A DNA stretch of 64,000 nucleotides, from positions 3,348,001 through 3,412,000 of the forward strand of contig NZ_QUMQ01000001.1 in NCBI RefSeq assembly GCF_003387075.1, read 5' to 3'. The notes beneath the pieces were generated by a model. It searched no databases, had not been told where the DNA came from, and saw only the letters and a program-made list of their open reading frames with translations. The DNA is from Asanoa ferruginea. GTDB lineage: Bacteria > Actinomycetota > Actinomycetes > Mycobacteriales > Micromonosporaceae. The first letter of the stretch is position 1. Each line of letters begins with the position of its first letter. A program made the position numbers and the translations under genes. Below are positions 834-52,892 of the stretch, in pieces.

Positions 834-1436
834 TCACGGCACCGGCTGCGGGATGGTCTCGTCGGGCACGTCTTCGCGCCGCAGGCCCGAGTCGGGCGTC
901 TCGCCTTCGCCGGCGCGCGGGGTCGGCGGCGCCGGTTCGGCGGTGCCGTGGCCGGCGCGGATCTCCGCGCTCGCCTCGCGCACCGCACGCACGATGTTCT
1001 GATAGCCGGTGCACCGGCAGAGGTTGCCCTCCAGCCCTTCGCGGATCTCCTCTTCGGACGGGTCGGCATTCTCTTCGAGCAGGTCGACGGCGGCCATGAT
1101 CATGCCGGGGGTGCAGAAGCCGCATTGCAGGCCGTGTGCCTGGTGGAAGGCCCGCTGCACCGGGTGCAGCGTGCGGTCGGGACCGGACAGCCCCTCGATC
1201 GTGATGATCTCGCGATCGTTGGCCTGCACGGCCAGCACGGAGCAGCTCTTGACACTTCGCTGGTGGCCGTCGGCATCGCTCATCAGCACGGTGCATGCAC
1301 CACAGTTGCTGGTGTCGCAGCCGACCACAGTGCCAACCTTGCCGAGTTGTTCGCGTAGGTGATGGACGAGCAGGGTGCGCGGTTCGACGTCGTCCTCGTA
1401 GTCGACTCCGTCGACCTTGATGGATACCCGAGTCAT
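834..1436 (-). CDS. coxS: Molybdenum hydroxylase 2Fe-2S small subunit, CoxS-like
   Basis: A 200-residue iron-sulfur subunit that passes electrons from the Mo site to the flavin subunit. The N-terminal plant-type [2Fe-2S] site is visible as C40, C45, C48 and C65. The second cluster motifs CGFCTPG and CRCTGYQ follow. The family is usually about 160 residues, and the extra 40 residues are a Pro/Glu-rich tail after the last helix. The ATG at 1436 has a strong AGGAGG ribosome-binding site 5 nt upstream. It sits between coxE and coxL, the normal order for this operon type. Confidence 0.95.
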
Positions 1437-1540
1437 CAGGCCTCCTGGCTTGCTCAGGGACGGGCGCGCGGGGGTGGCGCGCTGATCTCAGCCAAACCCT
1501 TCCCGCGCGGCGAGGCAAGGTTTTTTGTGAAAGGGATCAC

Positions 1541-2650
1541 TTATTTCGCGATCACGCGGACCAGTTCGTCGAGGGCATCCACTGTGTGCCCGGCGACGAA
1601 ATCGTCGAGATGCGGCAATGCGGCCGCCATCCCGCCGGCCAACGGTGCGAAACCGGCCTTGCCGCGGTGCGGATTGACCCAGATCAGGCGGTACGCGAGG
1701 CGCGACAGCCGATGCGTCTGCGCGGCCAGGGCGTCGGGGGAGCCCCGCTCCCAGCCGTCGCTGAACACGACGACGATCGAGCCCCGGGCCGTGCCGCGCT
1801 GGCCCCAGCGGTCGAGGAACGCCTTCAGCGCGTCGGCCAGCCGGGTGCCGCCGTGCCAGTCCGGGATCGCCACCGAGGCGGCGTGCAGCGCGGCGTCGGG
1901 GTCGCGGTGGCGCAGCGCGCGGGTGATCCGGGTCAGTCGGGTGCCCAGCGTGAATACTTCGGTGCGGGTGGGGCGGCGGCGGACGGCCGCGTGCGCGAAC
2001 CGCAGCAACGCGTCGGCGTAGGGGCTCATCGAGCCGGACACGTCGACCAGCAGCACCAGCCGGCGAGGGCGCTCGTCGCGCCGCCGGCGGGCCAGCCTGG
2101 TCGGCTCGCCGGCGTGCCGGAGCGCGGCCCGCAGCGTGCGCGCCGGGTCGACCTCGCCGCCACGGGCCGGCCGGCGCCGCCGGCTGCGCCGGGTCGCCGG
2201 CTCCGGGCCGAGCAACGCGAGCAGCCGCCGCACCTCGTCGCGCTCGCGCGGGGTGAGTAGGGCGAAGTCGCGCTGGCGGAGGATCTCGACGGTGCTGGCC
2301 GAGAGACCGAGAAGCAGCGGCTCCTCGTCGGTGTCGCTCGCCTCGCCGGGCGGGCCAGACGTGTAGGGCGCCGCGATGCTGGGCGGCGCCGGCGCGGCGG
2401 GGCCGAACCGGTCGCCGGCCGGCCGGTGACCGCCGAAGTAGGCGGCGAAGGCGGCGTCGTAGATCGCCAGGTCGTCGGGCTCGGCACAGAGCGTCTGCCG
2501 GCCGGCCCAGTAGAGCCGGCCCGGCGTGATGTCGCCCAACGCGTCGACGGCGCGCAGCATCGTCTGCACCCGGTCGGGGCCGGCGGCGACGCCGGCGTGC
2601 CGCAGCGTGCGGGCGAACCCGACGAGCAGCGCGCTGACGTCGGCGCTCAT
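1541..2650 (-). CDS. coxE: VWA-domain protein, CoxE-like molybdenum hydroxylase maturation factor
   Basis: A 369-residue protein with a C-terminal von Willebrand A domain. The MIDAS metal site is DVSGSM in the segment LLVDVSGSMSPYAD, and a later SDGWERG gives another MIDAS residue. Arg-rich low-complexity sequence separates the N-terminal part from the VWA domain, as in CoxE proteins. CoxE works with the CoxD ATPase in assembling the Mo-containing active site. The ATG at 2650 overlaps the coxD stop (ATGA), so the pair is translationally coupled. The reading frame stays open far upstream, but that part is antisense-free coxD overlap and I do not include it. About 104 bp separate it from coxS. 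Confidence 0.9.
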   Translation of the reverse strand: MSADVSALLVGFARTLRHAGVAAGPDRVQTMLRAVDALGDITPGRLYWAGRQTLCAEPDDLAIYDAAFAAYFGGHRPAGDRFGPAAPAPPSIAAPYTSGPPGEASDTDEEPLLLGLSASTVEILRQRDFALLTPRERDEVRRLLALLGPEPATRRSRRRRPARGGEVDPARTLRAALRHAGEPTRLARRRRDERPRRLVLLVDVSGSMSPYADALLRFAHAAVRRRPTRTEVFTLGTRLTRITRALRHRDPDAALHAASVAIPDWHGGTRLADALKAFLDRWGQRGTARGSIVVVFSDGWERGSPDALAAQTHRLSRLAYRLIWVNPHRGKAGFAPLAGGMAAALPHLDDFVAGHTVDALDELVRVIAK

Positions 2651-3609: not shown

Positions 3610-6600
3610 TCAGAAGGCCGTCGCGCGGCGCTGCCGGACCAGCGCGAGCACCAGCAGCGGCACCGCGCAGGCCGCCCAGACCAGACCCAGCGTGATCGGG
3701 TTGGGCAGGGTCGGCAGCGCCAGTGGCCAGTCGGCGTCGAGGAAGACCGGGATGGCCGGGTTGGCCACCACCCAGGCGGCGATGGCCAGCGGCGGGCCGA
3801 GCAGCACGCCGAGCAGGACCGGCCAGAGCCGCAGGTGCCGGGCTGCCGAGCGGAGTGTCGGTGCCGGAACGCCCTGCGACCGCAGCACCCGGGTGCGGGC
3901 CGAGCGGTCCGCGTTTTCGGCCGCGGCCACCAGACCGAGGCCGAGCAGCACCAGCAACACCGCGAAACCGGCGCTGACCAGCTCGTAGCGGGAGGCCAGC
4001 GCGGCACCGTCACGGGCGGCGAGGTCTGCCACGTCGCGCACCGAGGTCTCGCCGAGCACGGTCAGGCCCACCGCGGCCAGCTGGGCGACGGCGTCGTCCG
4101 GCGCGTCGGGGCCGATCCAGACCTGCGGCGTGCCGCCGGCACCCATCGGCGCGGCGGTGTCGAGGTAGCCGATGTCGACCAGCAGGCCGGATGCGCCGAG
4201 GCCGGGCAGGGTAGCCAGCGCGCCGACGCTGTCGGCCGGGACCGTCTCGGTGCGGCCGGGCGAGGAGAGCGCCCAACCGGTGTCGGTCTCGCGAGCGGCG
4301 GCCGAGGTGGTGCGCAGGATCGGCAGCACGGGCGGCGCGTCGGCGACCAGCAACCGCTGCGGCACCTGGGTCGTCTGCAACACCACGGTGGCGCCGTCGG
4401 CCGCCGAGGTCAGCTTCGGCGCGGTCGACTCGATGCCGTCTTCGGTGGTGGCCCGCCAGCGGGTCGTGTCGCGCAGCACGTCGGGGCCGGCGACGACCTT
4501 GTCGGGACCGGTCGCGGCGATCTGGTGCACCGTCAGCTCGGTGGTGCCCCAGGTGGGTTGCACCTCCAACCCGATCAACCGGCAGGCCGGCTGGCATTGC
4601 GGGAGGCTGCCGTCGTAGCGGTGCCGTCCTGGCCGCAGCGGGCCCAGCGACACGGTGCGGTCGGCCTCGCCCGGCGCCTGCACGAGGGCGCGCAGTTCCG
4701 GCGTGTCGCCCTGGAAGAAGGGCCGGGTCAGCGGGTCGATGCTGTCGGCGACGACGGTCGCGTCGACCCGGATGTGGCTGCCGGCCACCGACAGCGAGGG
4801 CGCGCGTTGCGGGCGCAATCGGGCGCTCTGGTCGGCGGGCACCGAGCCGGGCCAGGCCACCGCCGAAAGCCGGTCGGTGTCGGCCGCGATGGTCGTCGGG
4901 CCGGAGCCGGTGGCGGGGATGCGCACCACCGCCATCGCCCAGCGACCGTCGGGATCGGCCTGCCGCACGGCGGTACGCAGCGCCCCGCCGGCGAGTTGGT
5001 TGACGTTGAACACCCGGTCGGCGCCGAGTTCGATGCCGGCCCGCTGCTCGCGGGCGGCGCCACCCAGGTCGACCGCGAGCACCGCGAAGCAGAGCAGCGC
5101 GACGCCCAGCACGGCCAGCGTCACCGCCCGGCGGGGTGCCGAGCGGCGGGACAGCTCGATGCCGGCCAGCGCCCCGGAGAGCCGACCGGCGAGCAACGCC
5201 CGGCCACCGACCCGGCGTGCGGCCGGCCCGAGCAGCCGGGCGACGAGCAGCGCACCGGCCAGGATGAGCAGCGCGGGCGCGAGGATGCCGAGGCCGCCGT
5301 GGACCGGGCCGGCCTCGCCGCGGGCCTCGACGGCGGTGAACACGGCCAGCGCGACCACCATCGCGTCGATCGTCGCCGACCGCCAGGCACCGCCCTGCCG
5401 GGTCACCTTCCGCAGCAGATCGATGGCCCGGCCGGTGATCAGTGGCCGGTAGGCGAGGGCGGCGGCGAGCAGGGCACCGGCGACCGCCACCACGGCATAG
5501 CGGACGGTGTCGCCGGGTAGGCCGAGGTCGACGCCGCCACCGGGCACGGCCCAGTCGCCCACAAGCTGGCCGGCGACGAAGCCGATGGGCGCACCGACGA
5601 GCAGCGCGGCCCAGTCCGGGCCGGCCGCGAGCCACCAGCGGTGCGGCAACGGCATGCCGCGCAGCGCCACCTGGCCCAGCTCGGTCCGGCGGGTGTCGGA
5701 TCCGGACGCCGCCGCCAGGAAGATCACGAACCAGCACAACGGCACGACGGTCAGCGCCAGCCAGGGCACCAGCGAACGCACCGCCGCGCGACTCTCCTCG
5801 ATCCGGGCGATCAGCGGGCCGGCGCCGCTGACCAGGGTGGCCTGGTTTTCGGTGGCCTTGTTGTTGAGCCGGTCGAGCTCGGCCGGATAGCGGTCGACCC
5901 ATCCGGTGGTGAGCTGGGCCGGATCGGCGATCAGGTCGTAGGACTGCGCCTCCGGCACCACGAGAGTGAACAGCTTGGCGGTGGCCCGCGAACCGAACAC
6001 CGGCTCGACACCGACGTTGTTGGCCACGTCGGTGCCGACCAGCCCGTTGGTCAGCAGCCCGGGCGGGAACGGCGGGGTGGCGCCCCAGTAGGCGGCGGCC
6101 GGATCGGTCGGCCGGTAGATGCCGACGACGGAGAGCGGCACGGCTTCGCCGAGCCGGTGCAACTCGTTGGCGCCGTCGGCGAGCACGAACTTGGACTGGC
6201 GGACCGACAGCGCGTCGCCGACCGACGCGTGGATCCGCTCGGCGGTGCGGAAGCCGAGCATCACCTCGCCGCGGCCGGTGGGGCAGCGGCCGGCGTCGAG
6301 GCTGACGTGCCCGCAGACCCGGTCGCGGTAGGACAGCTTGAACGCCACGTCGATGTTGGGCACGGCGATGTCGAAGGAGGCGCCGAAGATCGGCTCGAAC
6401 CCGGGCGTGCCGAAGGCGCCACCGCCGAGCCGCTCGAACGTGTCGCCGGCCGCGCCCGGGTCATCGCTGGGACGCTGGAAGCTGAGCACGGTCTCGCCCG
6501 GCGCGGCGCCGGCCACCTCGGTGGCGACGATGGTGCGCTGCGCGGCCGCCACGTAGGCCGGGCCGGCCACCGCCGCGGCCACCGGGAGGGTGCCCAACAG

Positions 6601-17136: not shown

Positions 17137-17504
17137 CCCAGCGAGGCGTCAACCCCGCTGATCTCGATCACCCGGGCCACGTGGCCGTGCGCACCGGTCA
17201 GCCGGAGCCAGCCGCCGGCCTCGGCACAGCGCCGGTCGCCGCGCACAAACGTGGTCAGCCCGGCCGAGTCGCAGAAGGTCAGCGCGCTCAGGTCGACCAC
17301 CAGCCGGGGCGTGTCGCCGGTGGCCAGCGCGGTGATCCGCGCCAGCAACTCCGGTGAGCTCGACATGTCGAGTTCGCCGGCCAACCGCAACAGGACCGCG
17401 TCGCCGACCCGCCCGGTGGTCACCACCAGGGGCGCGACGACCTCGGTCTCCTCGATGCGCGGCCCGCCCGTGGCCTGTCTGGGCGCCGCGGGATCCGTGC
17501 TCAC
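17121..17504 (-). CDS. STAS-domain anti-sigma-factor antagonist
   Basis: A 127-residue STAS protein of the SpoIIAA/RsbV type. The core LVVDLSALTFCDSAGL holds the conserved Asp79-Ser80, the serine that partner kinases phosphorylate. When unphosphorylated such proteins free a sigma factor by binding its anti-sigma kinase. The GTG start at 17504 overlaps the stop of the upstream RsbW-like gene (GTGA), so kinase and antagonist are made together. It converges with the SsgA-like gene. Confidence 0.9.
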   Translation of the reverse strand: MSTDPAAPRQATGGPRIEETEVVAPLVVTTGRVGDAVLLRLAGELDMSSSPELLARITALATGDTPRLVVDLSALTFCDSAGLTTFVRGDRRCAEAGGWLRLTGAHGHVARVIEISGVDASLGYRPS

Positions 17505-17986
17505 TCCACCCGCTCCCCGGTCCCGGCCGCCTCGGCCCGCCTGGAGTTGTTGCCGTCGATAGTGGTGCTGATCCGCACCGTCGTGCCGGCGGGGCCGGTC
17601 GCCACCTTCATGCTGTCGCTGAGCTGACCGGCGAGCCACAACCCCCAGCCGCCCGCCGTGTCGGGTGCCGGCCGCTCGTGGTTGGCCAACTGGTCGGGGC
17701 CGATCCCGCCGCCGCCGTCGGACACCTCGCAGACCAGCGCGTGGCCGGCCCGCCAGAGCCGCAACTCGCCCGCGCCGCCGCCGTGCCGGACCGCGTTGGT
17801 GATCAGCTCGTTGACGGCCAGGACGAAGTCGTCGAGCCGTTGGTCGCGCAACCCGGCGGCTTCCGCACAGGCGGTCAGGGCGTGCCGGAGATCGGTCACC
17901 TGACCCCGGGAGAACGTCTCGGCGAGCAATGCCGACTCGGTGGTGGGCACAACCGCATCCGGCAGATGGTGCCCGTCGTCGGTCAT
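17501..17986 (-). CDS. RsbW-like anti-sigma factor / serine kinase (HATPase)
   Basis: A 161-residue GHKL ATPase of the RsbW/SpoIIAB family. The N box is NELITNAVRHGGG, the G1 box EVSDGGGGIG and the G2 box GGWGLWLAGQ, so ATP binding appears intact. It should phosphorylate the STAS protein encoded immediately downstream (4-bp overlap). The divergent gene encodes a PP2C-type phosphatase that could reverse this, which completes a partner-switching set. The cognate sigma factor is not identified; the sigma-STAS protein at 23063 is one candidate. Confidence 0.9.
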   Translation of the reverse strand: MTDDGHHLPDAVVPTTESALLAETFSRGQVTDLRHALTACAEAAGLRDQRLDDFVLAVNELITNAVRHGGGAGELRLWRAGHALVCEVSDGGGGIGPDQLANHERPAPDTAGGWGLWLAGQLSDSMKVATGPAGTTVRISTTIDGNNSRRAEAAGTGERVE

Positions 17987-22204: not shown

Positions 22205-22804
22205 TTACTCGTACGGCGGATCCTCGGTCTCGTGCATGGCCAGTTCCTCCGCGGTGGCACCGCCGCCGGCCGCGCCCGCGTCGTCGGCGATCGAGTCGCC
22301 TTCGTCGTCGAAGAGCGCACCCTCCGGCTCGTCTTCACCCGCGAACTGCGCCGGGTCGACCAGTCGCCCTATCGGCGCGCCACCGTCGCCGATCTCGAGA
22401 CCGTCGGTGTCGTAGAGCGACGACTCCGAGCCCGAGTCGTCGGCCGGACCGTCGTCGAGCACGTCGGCGTCGAGCTGCGACTGGGCGCGCTCGGTGCCGA
22501 GGTCCTCCTCGTCGCGGATCTTCGCGTCGGCCGGGGTCGCCAGCGGATCGTCGACGTCTTCGTCGAGGTTCTCCCGGGCGAGCTTGTAGTCGAGCGACTC
22601 ACCCTCCTCGGCCTCCTCACCGGTGGTGCCGAACCGGTCGACCGCCTGGGGCGAGTCGGTCGGGAACGCGGTCGGGTCCGGGCCGCTGGTCTCCCGCTCG
22701 GACTCCACCTCGTCGTAGGCGGTCGAGTCGTCGTCGGCGGTGCCCGGCAGGCCTTCGCTCTCCGGGTCGGACCAGGGCCGTGGGTATTCGTCTTCGCGCG
22801 GCAT
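22205..22804 (-). CDS. DUF5709 family acidic protein
   Basis: A 199-residue strongly acidic, probably disordered protein. It carries the DUF5709 signatures SLDYKLARE and GRLVDP near the C-terminal half. The family is common in actinobacteria and its function is unknown. No membrane segment or signal peptide is visible. The nearest gene on the other side is the divergent sigma-STAS gene, about 260 bp away. Confidence 0.82.
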   Translation of the reverse strand: MPREDEYPRPWSDPESEGLPGTADDDSTAYDEVESERETSGPDPTAFPTDSPQAVDRFGTTGEEAEEGESLDYKLARENLDEDVDDPLATPADAKIRDEEDLGTERAQSQLDADVLDDGPADDSGSESSLYDTDGLEIGDGGAPIGRLVDPAQFAGEDEPEGALFDDEGDSIADDAGAAGGGATAEELAMHETEDPPYE

Positions 22805-22893
22805 ACCGGGCGTCTACCCGCCCGGCCGGCAACACAACCGGCCGTGACCCCACGTGATAGATGCCTCATGGCAACTAATCGGTTCGGTTTTCA

Positions 22894-23062: not shown

Positions 23063-24211
23063 ATGACCCTTCAAAGCGGCTTGCCCGCTTCCGGTGAACT
23101 AGATCTTCCGGCCCTCGACGCGGTCGCCATGTCGTATGCCCAGCGTTCGGGAGATGATGCACGGCGGTTGGCGCGGGAACGCCTGGTGCGCTCGGCGATG
23201 CCCTTCGCGGGCCGGTTGGCGCGGCGCTATCGGGGCCGCGGTGAACCGATGGACGACCTGGAGCAGGTGGCCCGTCTGGGCCTCTTGAAGGCCGTCGACC
23301 GCTTTGACCCCGAACGCGGCGCTTTCACCGGTTTCGCGGCGGCGACAATTATCGGCGAACTCCGCCGGCATTTCCGCGACCGCACCTGGGGCGTCCACGT
23401 CCCGCGGCGGATGCAGGAGCTCAGCATCGAGGTCAACCGGGCATCCACCGAGATGACCGCGAAGCTGCGCCGCTCGCCGACGGTGCCAGAGCTGGCCGAA
23501 CGCCTGCGGGTCGACGAAGACGACGTGCTGGCGGCGCTGGAGACGGCGGCCGCCTACACACCGTTGTCGCTCAACATGCCGGCCCGCGCCGAGAGCGAGG
23601 CCGAGCTGGGCGACCTGATCGGCGGCGCCGACGTGGGCCTGGAGGCGGTCGACGACCGCCTGACGGTCGCCAGCCTGCTGTGCCGGCTACCGGAACGCGA
23701 GCGCCGCATCCTGGCGCTGCGCTTCTACGGCAACAAGACGCAGACCGAGATCGCCACCGAACTGGGCATCTCCCAGATGCACGTGTCCCGCCTGCTGTCC
23801 CGCGCGCTGGCCTGGCTCCGCGAGGCGATGCTGAGCGACGCCCCGAAGCAGTGGCAGGCCGGCATGGGCCCGGGCGAACACCACGAGATCACCGTGCAGC
23901 GCCGCGACAAGGCGAGCCTGGTCCGCCTGGACGTGGCCGGCGAGGTCGACCGCGACACGGCCGACCCGTTGCGGGCGGCACTGTTGGAGGCGGTGCAGGC
24001 GGTGTCGGACCGCCCACAGCCACGCGAGGTGGCCGTGAGCCTGGCGGGCGTGCCGATCATCGACGCCGCGGGCGTTTCCGCGCTGCTGGCGGGCCTGGAG
24101 GCCGCCCGCGCAGCCGGCGTGCGCCTGCGCATCGGCGACATGCAGGTCTACGTCCGCCGCACCCTGCGGGTGGCCGGCCTCAACCCCATCATGTCGGCGC
24201 CACACGCCTAG
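23063..24211 (+). CDS. SigB/SigF-family sigma factor fused to a C-terminal STAS domain
   Basis: A 382-residue protein in two parts. Residues about 35-260 form a complete SigB/SigF/SigG-type sigma-70 factor: region 2 (MDDLEQVARLGLLKAVDRFDP), region 3 (MQELSIEVNRA, LRRSPTVPELAERL) and region 4 (ERERRILALRFYGNKTQTEI and a helix-turn-helix ISQMHVSRLL). Residues about 275-375 are a STAS domain, normally a separate anti-sigma antagonist. At the usual phosphorylation site it reads DAAG (D334 to G337), with no Ser or Thr. Family sigma factors are about 260 residues, so the STAS part is a true addition. AGGAGG lies 7 nt before the ATG. How the STAS controls its own sigma factor is not known to me. Confidence 0.9.
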   Translation: MTLQSGLPASGELDLPALDAVAMSYAQRSGDDARRLARERLVRSAMPFAGRLARRYRGRGEPMDDLEQVARLGLLKAVDRFDPERGAFTGFAAATIIGELRRHFRDRTWGVHVPRRMQELSIEVNRASTEMTAKLRRSPTVPELAERLRVDEDDVLAALETAAAYTPLSLNMPARAESEAELGDLIGGADVGLEAVDDRLTVASLLCRLPERERRILALRFYGNKTQTEIATELGISQMHVSRLLSRALAWLREAMLSDAPKQWQAGMGPGEHHEITVQRRDKASLVRLDVAGEVDRDTADPLRAALLEAVQAVSDRPQPREVAVSLAGVPIIDAAGVSALLAGLEAARAAGVRLRIGDMQVYVRRTLRVAGLNPIMSAPHA

Positions 24212-24217
24212 GCCCGT

Positions 24218-24796
24218 TCAGAGCCGGCGGACGACCGGCTCCAGGACCTTGACGAGTTCGGCGGTGTTGCCGCTGCGGTAGTGGTCCTGGCAGGCGGCGA
24301 TGTTGTCATGCTGGGACAGCTCGGACCAGTCCAGCCGGTATCCGGCGGCCGCTGCGAGTTGACGGAGAAACGCCCGGATCGCTCGCCCGTTGCCCTCGCG
24401 GAACGGATGCCGCACGTTGAGTTCGCCGTAGTAATGGGCGAGGGCGGGGACGAACGCGTCGATCCTGATGCCGGCCAGGAAACCGTCATCCTTCAACCGG
24501 TCGAGCACCGCGGTGACCTCGTCTTCGACGAACCGCCAGTTGCAGAAATACACCCCAGGCTTGCTGATGTCGACGGTGCGGGCCTGCCCCGCCCACGCGT
24601 AGACATCGCGGAACAGCAGCTCGTGAAATCGGAACAGATGGGATGCGTTGTAACTGCCGGGAACCGTCGAACGGGAGATTTCCACGTCACGGATCGACGC
24701 GACTTGAGCTTCGACTTCGTGTAACTGGTCGGCGTCGGTGATTCCCAACAGATTCGCGAGGCAGTTCGTGCCTGGAACGCAGTAGGGATCATCCAC
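24218..24796 (-). CDS. Fic-domain protein (probable AMPylating toxin)
   Basis: A 192-residue Fic protein. The active motif HPFREGNGR (residues 130-138, plus R141) matches the consensus HxFx(D/E)GNGRxxR fully, so it should transfer AMP or another nucleotide to a target protein. The upstream flap and core are seen in FHELLFRDVYAWAGQ and VYFCNWRFVEDE. It has no own inhibitory (S/T)xxxE(G/N) helix at either end, as in class I Fic toxins that need a separate antitoxin. Its start overlaps the end of the Panacea-domain gene by 8 bp, the arrangement of antitoxin-toxin pairs. Codon use is less GC-rich than in neighbouring genes. Confidence 0.93.
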   Translation of the reverse strand: MDDPYCVPGTNCLANLLGITDADQLHEVEAQVASIRDVEISRSTVPGSYNASHLFRFHELLFRDVYAWAGQARTVDISKPGVYFCNWRFVEDEVTAVLDRLKDDGFLAGIRIDAFVPALAHYYGELNVRHPFREGNGRAIRAFLRQLAAAAGYRLDWSELSQHDNIAACQDHYRSGNTAELVKVLEPVVRRL

Positions 24797-25379
24797 GGTT
24801 GAGCCGGCCGATCACCTCGGCCACGAGATCGTCGGCAGTGATCCGGCCGGTCGCCACGTCTCGGAGCCTGTCCTGCCAATCTTCGGTGAACTCGACGCCC
24901 TCGATAGCTGCGTTGGAGGTGGCGAGGGCGACCGAGGTCTCGGCCTCGGCGATCTGACGTGCGTAGTAGATCCGCATGAGGTCGGTGCTGATCGGCGCGT
25001 CCGAGGGCTGTGAATCAGACAGGCCGACCCTGGCCGCCTTCCAGGGCAGCTCCTGATGGGTCATCTCGGAGAGCTCGCTGGCAGTGAACTTGCCGTATTC
25101 GGAAACGACCCATCGCACCGACGACAGCTCCATCGGCGTCAAGTTTTTCGCGGACCCGAGAGGCCAATTCGCGACCTCGCGCTGTTGCCGGTGATGCTTG
25201 AAAAGGGCAGGTGCGACCGGACCCTGTTGCCAGGCTTCGAGCGTTTCGTCAAACAACGGCGAGCCGTGTCGCGCCAGATGCCATCCCTGGCAGTAATAGA
25301 CAAGCTTTTCCAGCTTCATCGTCGTCGTGCGACCGTGGCGTTCGAGAACGGCGGCGGCGACATCGTGCACGGTGGCCAT
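24789..25379 (-). CDS. Panacea (SocA/DUF4065) domain protein with VbhA-like tail, probable antitoxin of the Fic toxin
   Basis: A 196-residue protein. Residues about 5-130 are a Panacea/SocA-like (DUF4065) domain: KLEKLVYYCQGWHLARHGSPLF, then WQQGPVAPALFKHHRQQ. Panacea domains are known as general antitoxin domains paired with many toxin types. The last 50 residues resemble the small antitoxin VbhA. SNAAIEG (S155-G161) sits where VbhA-type antitoxins have the (S/T)xxxEG inhibitory motif, followed by a GRITADDLVAEVI helix. It is placed before the Fic gene with an 8-bp overlap. The in-register serine appears to be an Asn here, so the exact inhibitory contact is uncertain. Confidence 0.85.
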   Translation of the reverse strand: MATVHDVAAAVLERHGRTTTMKLEKLVYYCQGWHLARHGSPLFDETLEAWQQGPVAPALFKHHRQQREVANWPLGSAKNLTPMELSSVRWVVSEYGKFTASELSEMTHQELPWKAARVGLSDSQPSDAPISTDLMRIYYARQIAEAETSVALATSNAAIEGVEFTEDWQDRLRDVATGRITADDLVAEVIGRLNRG

Positions 25380-25513: not shown

Positions 25514-26239
25514 CTAATCGGCGTGGTCGTAGTCGGGGGCCACGACTGACCAGACGACCTTGCCGTCGGGTAGGTCAGTGACGCCCCAGCGCAGGGCTAC
25601 CGCCTGGATCAACAGCAAACCTCGGCCGCCGTACGCGGTCGTCGGCACCGGGCCCGCGTAGACCGGGACCGCGGTCGACCAGTCGCGGACCGACAGGTGC
25701 AGGGTGTCGCCGTCGGCGCCGCGGCCGACCAGGACCGTCATTGCCGTCTGGGCGTGTGCCACCACGTTGTTGACCAGCTCGGTGACCACGATGCAGGCCG
25801 CGCCGGCGACCGCCGGTTGTTCCCAGCGGGCGCACGCCTCGGTGACCAGCTCGCGCGCGCGGCGGGCGGCGCCGGTGACCGGGTCGAGGTCGGCGCGGAG
25901 CAATGACTCGGTGGAGTGCGGCGGCGGGTGGTCGGCGCGGTCGGCCACGCGGAAGCCGACGTTTTCCCATGGCCCCGCGAACGCGTGCGGCACGCTGATC
26001 ATCGGCTGGCGCGACGGCCAGTCGGCGGTTTCCCGGGCCACTTCCTCGAAGGTCGACAGGACGGTCGGGTCGTCGATCCGCGGGCCGGTCACCTCGATCA
26101 CGGCGGGCGTGCGGTCGGCCACGACCGACAGCAGGGCACCGCGCAGCGCCTCGGCCGACCGCTGGTCGAGCACGCCCTGGAGCTGAACGACCGCGTAGGG
26201 CTCGTCGTCGGCCACCAGAAAATGCACATCGGTCGGCAT
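25514..26239 (-). CDS. STAS-like / HATPase fusion regulator (RsbW-type)
   Basis: A protein of about 241 residues. The N-terminal half has a STAS- or MEDS-like fold (VVQLQGVLDQRSAEALRGALL) but no DSxG phosphosite. The C-terminal half is a GHKL ATPase with N box VTELVNNVVAHA and G2 box YGGRGLLLIQ. The combined layout suggests an anti-sigma-type regulator. The start at 26239 is favoured because GGAG lies 5 nt before that ATG; ATGs at 26257 and 26290 are alternatives. It follows the SDR gene by 44 bp on the same strand. Confidence 0.78.
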   Translation of the reverse strand: MPTDVHFLVADDEPYAVVQLQGVLDQRSAEALRGALLSVVADRTPAVIEVTGPRIDDPTVLSTFEEVARETADWPSRQPMISVPHAFAGPWENVGFRVADRADHPPPHSTESLLRADLDPVTGAARRARELVTEACARWEQPAVAGAACIVVTELVNNVVAHAQTAMTVLVGRGADGDTLHLSVRDWSTAVPVYAGPVPTTAYGGRGLLLIQAVALRWGVTDLPDGKVVWSVVAPDYDHAD

Positions 26240-26283
26240 GATCGCTCCATTGTGCATGTCGGGGACGTACTCATGCGTCTTCG

Positions 26284-27165
26284 TCACCATCGCCGGCTCC
26301 GTGCGTGACGGCGGGTGACGGCCGCGATCGTGCCCGCCGCGGTGCCGGCGGCCAGGCCGAGCAGCGCACCGACCCGCACTGTGGCGCGGCGGCGGTCGCC
26401 TTCGGTCGGGATCGGCGTGGCACGCCAGTTGACCCGCAACCGGGCGGCGATCCCACCGGCGTACGCCTCCCGGCGGGGTCGGGTCAGCAACCGCACGATC
26501 GTGTGGGCCGCCACCTCCGGCGGCTGGACCGGTGGTGGCGGCGCGATTCGCCGGCCGGCGGCGTATTGGCGGACCGGAGCGGCCGTGCCGGCCGGCAGCA
26601 CGGTGCAGATCGAGATCCGCTTCTCGCCGGTGACCCGCAACTCCTGGCGGACCGTGTCGGCGAGGCCGCGTACGCCCTGCTTGGCCGCGTTGTAGACCGA
26701 CTGGTAGGGCAGCGCGACGGCGGCCAGCGCGGAGGCGTTGTTGACCAGCACGCCGCCGCCGGCCGCGCGCAGGTGTGGCAGGGCGGCCCGCATCCCGTAG
26801 GCGGCGCCCAGCAGGTTGACCTCGATGACCTGGCGGAGTTGCCCGAGCGGGATCTCCTCGAACAGGCCCACCGCGCCCGTGGTGGCGTTGTTGACCCAGG
26901 CGTCCACCCGGCCGAACAGGGCCGCCGATCCCTCGGCCAGGCGCTGCACGGCGGCCGGATCGGTCACGTCGGTCGGCAGCACCGCCGTCCGGCCGCCGAA
27001 CGCCCGGCAGCGCTCGGCGACCGCGTCCAGCGCTGGTTCACCACGGGCGGCGAGCACCACCGTGCCGCCCTGCCTCGCCACCTCCAGCGCGGTCGCCGCG
27101 CCGGCGCCGCTGGAGGCGCCGGTGATCACGACCACCGCTTGGGCGAGCGGGCGGGTAAGCGCCAT
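26284..27165 (-). CDS. Short-chain dehydrogenase/reductase with C-terminal membrane segment
   Basis: A 293-residue classical SDR. The cofactor loop is TGASSGAGAATA, followed by NNAT, the catalytic Ser in NNASALAAVALPYQ and YNAAK with Tyr and Lys. The C-terminal 40 residues contain a hydrophobic stretch (VGALLGLAAGTAAGTIAAV) and an Arg-rich tail, suggesting membrane association. Substrate unknown. The ATG at 27165 gives the usual family N-terminus. The frame stays open far upstream, but that is a shadow of the transporter gene. Confidence 0.88.
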   Translation of the reverse strand: MALTRPLAQAVVVITGASSGAGAATALEVARQGGTVVLAARGEPALDAVAERCRAFGGRTAVLPTDVTDPAAVQRLAEGSAALFGRVDAWVNNATTGAVGLFEEIPLGQLRQVIEVNLLGAAYGMRAALPHLRAAGGGVLVNNASALAAVALPYQSVYNAAKQGVRGLADTVRQELRVTGEKRISICTVLPAGTAAPVRQYAAGRRIAPPPPVQPPEVAAHTIVRLLTRPRREAYAGGIAARLRVNWRATPIPTEGDRRRATVRVGALLGLAAGTAAGTIAAVTRRHARSRRW

Positions 27166-52484: not shown

Positions 52485-52892
52485 GTGAGTCAACTGACAA
52501 CTTCGGGCGCGAACGTCGACGACGACGTCGTGCTCCTCACGGTGCCCGCTGACGGCGGCTACCTGGGCGTCCTGCGCACCGCGACGGCCACGCTCGCCGC
52601 CCGCCTCCAGTTCGCCCTCGACGAGATCGAAGATCTCCGCATCGCGGTCGACGAGGCCTGCGCGATGCTCCTGGTCGTGGCGACGCCCGAGGCCGAGCTC
52701 GAATGCCGATTCGCGGTGACCGACGACGCGCTGCTGGTCGAGGTGACCGTGCCCACCGTGCGCGGTGCACGCCTCCCGGCGGAGAGCTCCTTCGCGTGGA
52801 AGGTGCTGACGGCGCTGACCACCTTCGCCAACGCCGAGGTCGCCGACGGTCGCGCCACCATCCGACTGATCACCCGCCGGGTCGGACACTAG
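52485..52892 (+). CDS. Degenerate RsbW-like anti-sigma factor homologue
   Basis: A 135-residue protein of the RsbW fold (IEDLRIAVDEACAMLLVVATPE then RFAVTDDALLVEVTVP). The Asn of the N box is missing (DEACAMLL), and neither the DxGxG nor the GxGL box is visible, so kinase activity is doubtful. In relatives the sigma factor gene follows directly. Here an AT-rich, gene-free stretch follows instead. The GTG start at 52485 comes after GAGGGG. Confidence 0.82.
   Translation: MSQLTTSGANVDDDVVLLTVPADGGYLGVLRTATATLAARLQFALDEIEDLRIAVDEACAMLLVVATPEAELECRFAVTDDALLVEVTVPTVRGARLPAESSFAWKVLTALTTFANAEVADGRATIRLITRRVGH

Follow-up and report, generated by a model that had tools for sequence, protein, structure and literature searches.

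The gene at 23063-24211 of the 64-kb stretch of DNA from the soil bacterium Asanoa ferruginea analysed here (the window) encodes a sigma factor of the SigB/F/G type with a STAS domain at the C-terminal end of the same chain, and we consider it probable that this STAS domain serves as a never-phosphorylated dock by which a dedicated SipA-type anti-sigma factor, here named SipA2, inhibits the sigma factor. A preliminary description of the DNA had seen the fusion correctly and the observation is real; its novelty was misjudged, and probably also the sign of its action. The features discussed below are:

22205-22804, minus strand: DUF5709 gene, divergent neighbour of the fusion and candidate target (Pfam 27.8 bits, cut-off 27.5; conserved beside sipA2)
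22815-22839, minus strand: GGTT-N15-CGGGTA, a SigB/F-type promoter-like site before DUF5709, resembling GnTT-n14-CGGGTA
23063-24211, plus strand: sigma-STAS fusion gene of the sigma-SsdA family, 382 aa (translation, Pfam, NCBIfam, conservation in the genus)
23063-23836, plus strand: sigma part, residues 1-258, with regions 2, 3 and 4 (Pfam; conservation of D65 and F88)
23891-24208, plus strand: fused STAS domain, residues 277-382
24065-24067, plus strand: codon of A335, at the position of the phosphorylated Ser of RsbV and SpoIIAA; first residue of helix 335-350 in the model
24218-24796, minus strand: Fic gene between the fusion and sipA2, outside the proposed switch (Pfam Fic)
24789-25379, minus strand: Panacea (SocA-like)/VbhA-like antitoxin gene overlapping the Fic gene, outside the proposed switch (Pfam)
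25514-26290, minus strand: sipA2, proposed dedicated anti-sigma factor, with an N-terminal STAS domain (about 18-128) and a C-terminal RsbW-like HATPase domain (about 126-253)

The fusion and its published relative

The reading frame is translated as a single chain without internal stop, and its ATG at 23063 is preceded by gaggagg. Pfam places Sigma70 region 2 at residues 41-109 (1.5e-16), region 3 at 120-186 (2.1e-15) and region 4 at 206-254 (7e-17), followed by STAS_2 at 289-373 (9.5e-13) and STAS at 278-377 (8e-10), and the NCBIfam SigBFG model TIGR02980 gives 262 bits against a cut-off of 234; the complete sigma factor of the preliminary description is thereby borne out. That the STAS domain belongs to the same chain is indicated by Pfam, the profile search against PDB, the model and VIA-align, and its fold resembles RsbV and SpoIIAA in VIA-align and in the profile search; a PDB search with the single sequence of the STAS part gave no match, whereas the profile search did. 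A sequencing error that joined two genes, a doubt raised at the outset, is excluded because the ORF is full length in all six Asanoa genomes (89-100% identical) and in four named Asanoa assemblies (hainanensis, ishikariensis, siamensis and iriomotensis).

The novelty implied earlier for such a fusion did not stand, as sigma-SsdA of Actinoplanes missouriensis (AMIS_54240; 379 aa, sigma part 37-260, STAS 282-377) was published in 2023 together with SipA (AMIS_54230; 243 aa, STAS 6-103, RsbW-like part 158-239) (PMC10733313). According to that paper, the sporangia of a sipA-less strain barely open, an effect that depends on sigma-SsdA; in two-hybrid assays the RsbW-like part of SipA binds the STAS domain of sigma-SsdA and the sigma part gives no signal, such that genetics and two-hybrid together have SipA restrain sigma-SsdA through its STAS domain. 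Recombinant sigma-SsdA transcribes in vitro, its promoter motif is GnTT-n14-CGGGTA, and suppressor mutations hit D68, F91 and L372: changes at the first two inactivate the sigma factor, and L372P, within the STAS domain, is a loss-of-function suppressor. The authors know of no earlier sigma factor with an anti-sigma antagonist domain, and report one sigma-STAS fusion outside the Micromonosporaceae, in Nonomuraea; the main text does not name Asanoa and does not seem to discuss the missing phosphosite (PMC10733313).

Locus L161 (genome G142) is probably the gene of sigma-SsdA, since the length of its fusion (379 aa), the four named residues (D68, F91, S100 and L372) and a convergent neighbour of 243 aa with S229, 81 bp away, all agree. 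The Asanoa protein (P0001) is 54% identical to it (204/375), with 66% in the sigma part and 38% in the STAS domain, and the L161 STAS also reads DAAG. D68 corresponds to Asanoa D65 (kept in 90/90 fusions), F91 to F88 (89/90) and L372 to L373 (86/88); S100 is not kept and reads I97.

The search for fusions and the alignment of phosphosites, both proposed in the preliminary description, gave 90 loci from 71 genomes of the family, with the STAS domain aligned in 88 of them (not in L167 and L196); in the homologues, therefore, STAS is not a separate gene, the same chain being found in 88/90 loci. A peculiarity of the A. ferruginea strain is ruled out, for at least 71 of 150 Micromonosporaceae genomes match at E<=1e-75, a lower bound given that 12 candidates were scored per genome. 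Across the class, the fusion profile hits 97 of 394 genomes at E<=1e-95 (four candidates scored per genome), and among the matches listed only three run through STAS, all in Micromonosporaceae; in the phylum search two of 396 genomes match at E<=1e-76, both again of this family. A wide spread of fusions in the class was not found at E<=1e-95, a threshold that weaker fusions would escape.

In the tree of sigma domains, 87 of the 90 loci form one clade, and L180, L182 and L196 lie among plain sigma factors. With a support of 0.95, L113 and L114 cluster with the Asanoa fusion, and the node that joins it to L161 has a support of 0.043; given this value and the different clade of its SipA (see below), we regard it, on these sequence trees, as a paralogue or an early branch within the sigma-SsdA family. 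Two Asanoa genomes carry further sigma-STAS fusions beside the conserved one, three in G005 (L177, L191 and L194) and two in G004 (L190 and L192).

The phosphosite of the fused STAS domain

Residues D334-A335-A336-G337, encoded at 24062-24073 (GACGCCGCGGGC), align with the D-S-x-G of RsbV and SpoIIAA in the profile search against PDB, and the early statement that the domain cannot be phosphorylated there holds for A335 and for the family: Ser or Thr occurs in none of the 88 aligned fused STAS domains, which instead carry Ala (76), Gly (7), Pro (2) or, in single cases, His, Met or Val. The alternative considered at the outset, that homologous STAS domains are normally phosphorylated, is contradicted by the same count. 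D334, A335 and G337 hardly vary across an alignment of 46 fusions, and in 28 STAS parts the D and G never change and the A almost never does. Among the other 17 STAS_2 matches in the A. ferruginea genome, 11 have Ser or Thr at the site and six do not, none of the six being D-A-x-G; a missing Ser alone is not rare for STAS domains of this genome. Searched against PDB, the STAS profile matches best the SpoIIAA chain 1tid_B (DASG), which we take to be an engineered form, with 1th8_B (DSSG) ranking behind.

A resemblance of this kind would suit the idea that the fused STAS domain permanently occupies an RsbW-type anti-sigma factor, such as those encoded at 17501 or 52485, so that the sigma factor stays free. 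By the mechanism of partner switching, a STAS domain with Ser changed to Ala would bind the anti-sigma factor and escape phosphorylation, and RsbW-like ORFs are indeed present in the window: that at 17501-17986 (minus strand) is recognised by Pfam, and the separate STAS gene with an intact DSAG was also found as described (match at 17148-17390, minus strand). The second ORF, 52485-52892 (plus strand), exists, but its designation as RsbW is weaker, with HATPase_c_2 at 25.1 bits, below the cut-off of 27.4. No other SigB/F/G-type sigma gene than the fusion lies in the 64-kb window, so that this ORF, if it encodes an anti-sigma factor, stands alone. Permanent occupation is nevertheless quite improbable in our judgement, as the RsbW-like gene of 17501 lies in a gene block that persists where no fusion sits in it, and in the characterised relative the protein that binds the STAS domain inhibits the sigma factor (PMC10733313). 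Since SipA inhibits sigma-SsdA through STAS, the likeliest mechanism would be opposite in sign to the titration or self-protection proposed early; the third early reading, STAS recruited as another kind of module, comes closest of the three to the docking that we favour.

Changed DxxG motifs (DGPA, EPGG and EHGG) occur in two genera, g11 (L135, L139 and L140) and g32 (L143, L145, L150, L151, L152, L153 and L157), and nearly all the genomes concerned are without a close SipA-type gene. D-A-x-G is found in 69 of 78 fusions from genomes with a SipA-type gene (E<=1e-20) versus one of 10 from genomes without, the nine changed-motif fusions of the latter all coming from g11 and g32. It may be that loss of SipA was followed by decay of the motif, as these sequences hint; it is a hint only, because the changes come from two genera and because, for five of those 10 genomes (G061, G104, G112, G119 and G120), a distant SipA-type gene of full length does emerge from a search by profile. 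The genome of the DGPA fusion L152 has SipA-type genes. The ratio of STAS to sigma divergence is highest in g32 (20.9), and the 7.7 of g11 falls within the 1.9 to 12.4 of four other groups, so that no clear relaxation of STAS is seen there.

These changed motifs, and the faster divergence of STAS relative to the sigma part (38% vs 66% identity to L161), could also be read as signs of a decaying leftover without function. We regard this as very improbable: the near-invariance of D334, A335 and G337 in the 46 sampled fusions and the retention of the domain in 88/90 loci argue against it, as does L372P, a loss-of-function change in the sigma-SsdA STAS (PMC10733313) at a Leu that all but two of 88 fusions keep.

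SipA2, its linkage to the fusion and the conserved block

As partners of the fusion, the RsbW genes proposed early fit less well than sipA2, a STAS-HATPase gene that the preliminary description had missed. It lies 1.3 kb downstream of the fusion in convergent orientation; its start codon is uncertain, with ATG also at residues 12 and 18. The C-terminal half of SipA2 folds like SpoIIAB and RsbW in VIA-align, and no second full-length SipA-type match was found in the A. ferruginea genome. The ATP-binding boxes of GHKL proteins are an N-box with E/N, a G1 box DxGxG and a G2 box GxG. In 49 sampled SipA-type proteins, E171, N175, H179, D203 and G224 are present in all and G222 in 48, and position 205, the Gly of the G1 motif, is Ser in 44 and Gly in none. 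The STAS domain of SipA itself has Ser or Thr at the canonical site in 0/49, with Pro or Arg there. In the SipA tree (midpoint-rooted, without support values), the Asanoa gene falls with lone SipA genes of other genera, apart from the L161 neighbour; by this comparison SipA2 is not the orthologue of the SipA that was tested (AMIS_54230). The presumed A. missouriensis genome holds two further SipA-type genes that PMC10733313 does not seem to mention: one at 1149-1886 (plus strand) of L161, 3.1 kb from the presumed sigma-SsdA gene, and one of the SipA2 type at 5001-5750 (plus strand) of L197, in the conserved block without a fusion.

Of the 90 fusion loci, 56 (in 49/71 genomes; the match of L195 is weak, 36 bits) have a full-length SipA-type ORF no more than 5 kb away, 37 no more than 1.5 kb away and 32 no more than 500 bp away, and SipA-type genes (E<=1e-20) occur in 61/71 genomes with a fusion versus 20/79 without, all raw counts not corrected for kinship. 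The nearest SipA-type ORF is on the 3' side of the fusion and in opposite orientation in 39 of the 56. Plain SigB-type loci had a SipA-type ORF in their 1.5-kb flanks in 0/13 cases (against 37/90, Fisher p 0.0036, a rough value as the gene must fit into the control flank). The other 34 fusion loci lack a full-length SipA-type ORF over the 5 kb, and in five of the 71 genomes (G015, G052, G071, G080 and G093) the profile search found no full-length SipA-type gene among the candidates scored.

In 54 neighbouring pairs, the SipA HATPase domain co-varies with the fused STAS domain given the sigma part (partial rank r 0.30, reached in 0/500 permutations) and less with the sigma part given STAS (0.16); for SipA's own STAS domain the order is reversed (0.12 with the fused STAS, 0.23 with the sigma part). 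This pattern fits the published two-hybrid result (PMC10733313).

In the window, sipA2 belongs to a block of aroA, rsgA, hisN, EamA-like, SDR, sipA2, DUF5709, response regulator, DUF5931 kinase and RsbW genes, of which the first five were named by eye and the others by Pfam; in the comparison of loci not every gene was seen in every one. The lone SipA genes that group with the Asanoa gene in the tree occupy this block too. The fusion sits between sipA2 and DUF5709, convergent to the former, in 6/6 Asanoa genomes and in G079, G041 and G032. Comparison with the five other Asanoa loci did not turn up the Panacea/Fic pair (24218-25379, minus strand), which is thus probably a recent insertion.

It could be argued that SipA2 has another target or targets, that its adjacency to the fusion is incidental and that the fused STAS domain docks some other protein. 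The genome does encode five other SigB/F/G-type sigma factors, and among 13 loci with a lone sipA2, picked from a longer list, 11 have sipA2 and DUF5709 without a fusion (L207 and L208 being without DUF5709). Such a reading seems unlikely to us in view of the loci of Asanoa and of G079, G041 and G032 where the fusion lies between the two genes, of two Asanoa pairs less than 20 bp apart (L109 and L112), and of SipA2 being the only full-length SipA-type match in the genome.

The promoter-like site GGTT-N15-CGGGTA stops 10 bp short of the DUF5709 start. Of 20 loci with the gene, 13 show the pattern GnTT-N13-17-GGGTA with its end 7-11 bp ahead of the projected start, among them 6/6 from Asanoa and 0/3 from g29, the genus of the L161 genome; the background in the same loci is 20 of 3896 windows of 120 bp. 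The site also occurs where the fusion sits elsewhere, so that some SigB/F-type factor may read it, and the fusion is a candidate only for this role. No strict SigB-type promoter matched directly before the fusion itself.

Proposed mechanism and comparison with known systems

By analogy with SipA of A. missouriensis, we infer that SipA2 is the partner of the fusion and acts in the same manner. Its RsbW-like domain would grip the fused STAS domain, and the sigma part tethered to it would be kept from working, such that partner switching would run backwards, with the anti-anti-sigma fold as the handle of the inhibitor and not its antagonist. As the phospho-acceptor is missing in both STAS domains (88 fusions and 49 SipA-type proteins), a classical kinase switch has no canonical site on which to act, and release must depend on a different signal, which may come through SipA's own STAS domain.

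More tentatively, and with doubts that outweigh our confidence, we suggest that SipA2 represents a second arm of sigma-SsdA regulation, with a fixed place in a conserved gene block of the Micromonosporaceae that it retains even in genomes whose fusion is located outside the block. It might control fused sigma factors, whether encoded nearby or at a distance (in cis or in trans), purely through domain docking and without phosphorylation at either canonical site (Ala or Gly in the STAS of the sigma factor, Pro or Arg in that of SipA), in which case the release signal would have to act on SipA's own STAS domain.

New here are the absence of the phosphosite in 88/88 fused and 49/49 SipA STAS sequences, a fusion-SipA pair from another branch, and a SipA in a conserved locus of the family, often without an adjacent fusion. 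The loss in both partners sharpens the question of how SipA controls the sigma factor, which the sigma-SsdA study leaves unanswered (PMC10733313), and the Asanoa locus offers another type of SipA, seated in a conserved locus, along with a further natural pair on which binding could be tested.

Like sigma-SsdA, the Asanoa protein is a SigB/F/G-type sigma factor with a C-terminal STAS domain, and it has a convergent neighbour with an N-terminal STAS and a C-terminal RsbW-like domain. Unlike the A. missouriensis genes, Asanoa sipA2 falls in another SipA clade, lies in a block that ends with DUF5709, response regulator and kinase, and in A. ferruginea is separated from the fusion by the Panacea/Fic pair. 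The pair shares its STAS and RsbW-type folds with RsbV/RsbW/sigma-B and SpoIIAA/SpoIIAB/sigma-F; however, the antagonist-type STAS is fused to the sigma factor instead of being a separate protein, it has A335 in place of the phosphorylatable residue of D-S/T-x-G, and SipA2, unlike RsbW and SpoIIAB, is fused to a second STAS domain. PhyR joins a receiver to a sigma-like domain that is a decoy for NepR, and like it the Asanoa protein combines a sigma-type domain with a partner-switch module in a single polypeptide. Unlike in PhyR, the sigma part of the Asanoa protein is complete, and its relative sigma-SsdA is active in transcription in vitro; in A. missouriensis, in contrast to canonical switching, the STAS domain is the place where inhibition acts (PMC10733313).
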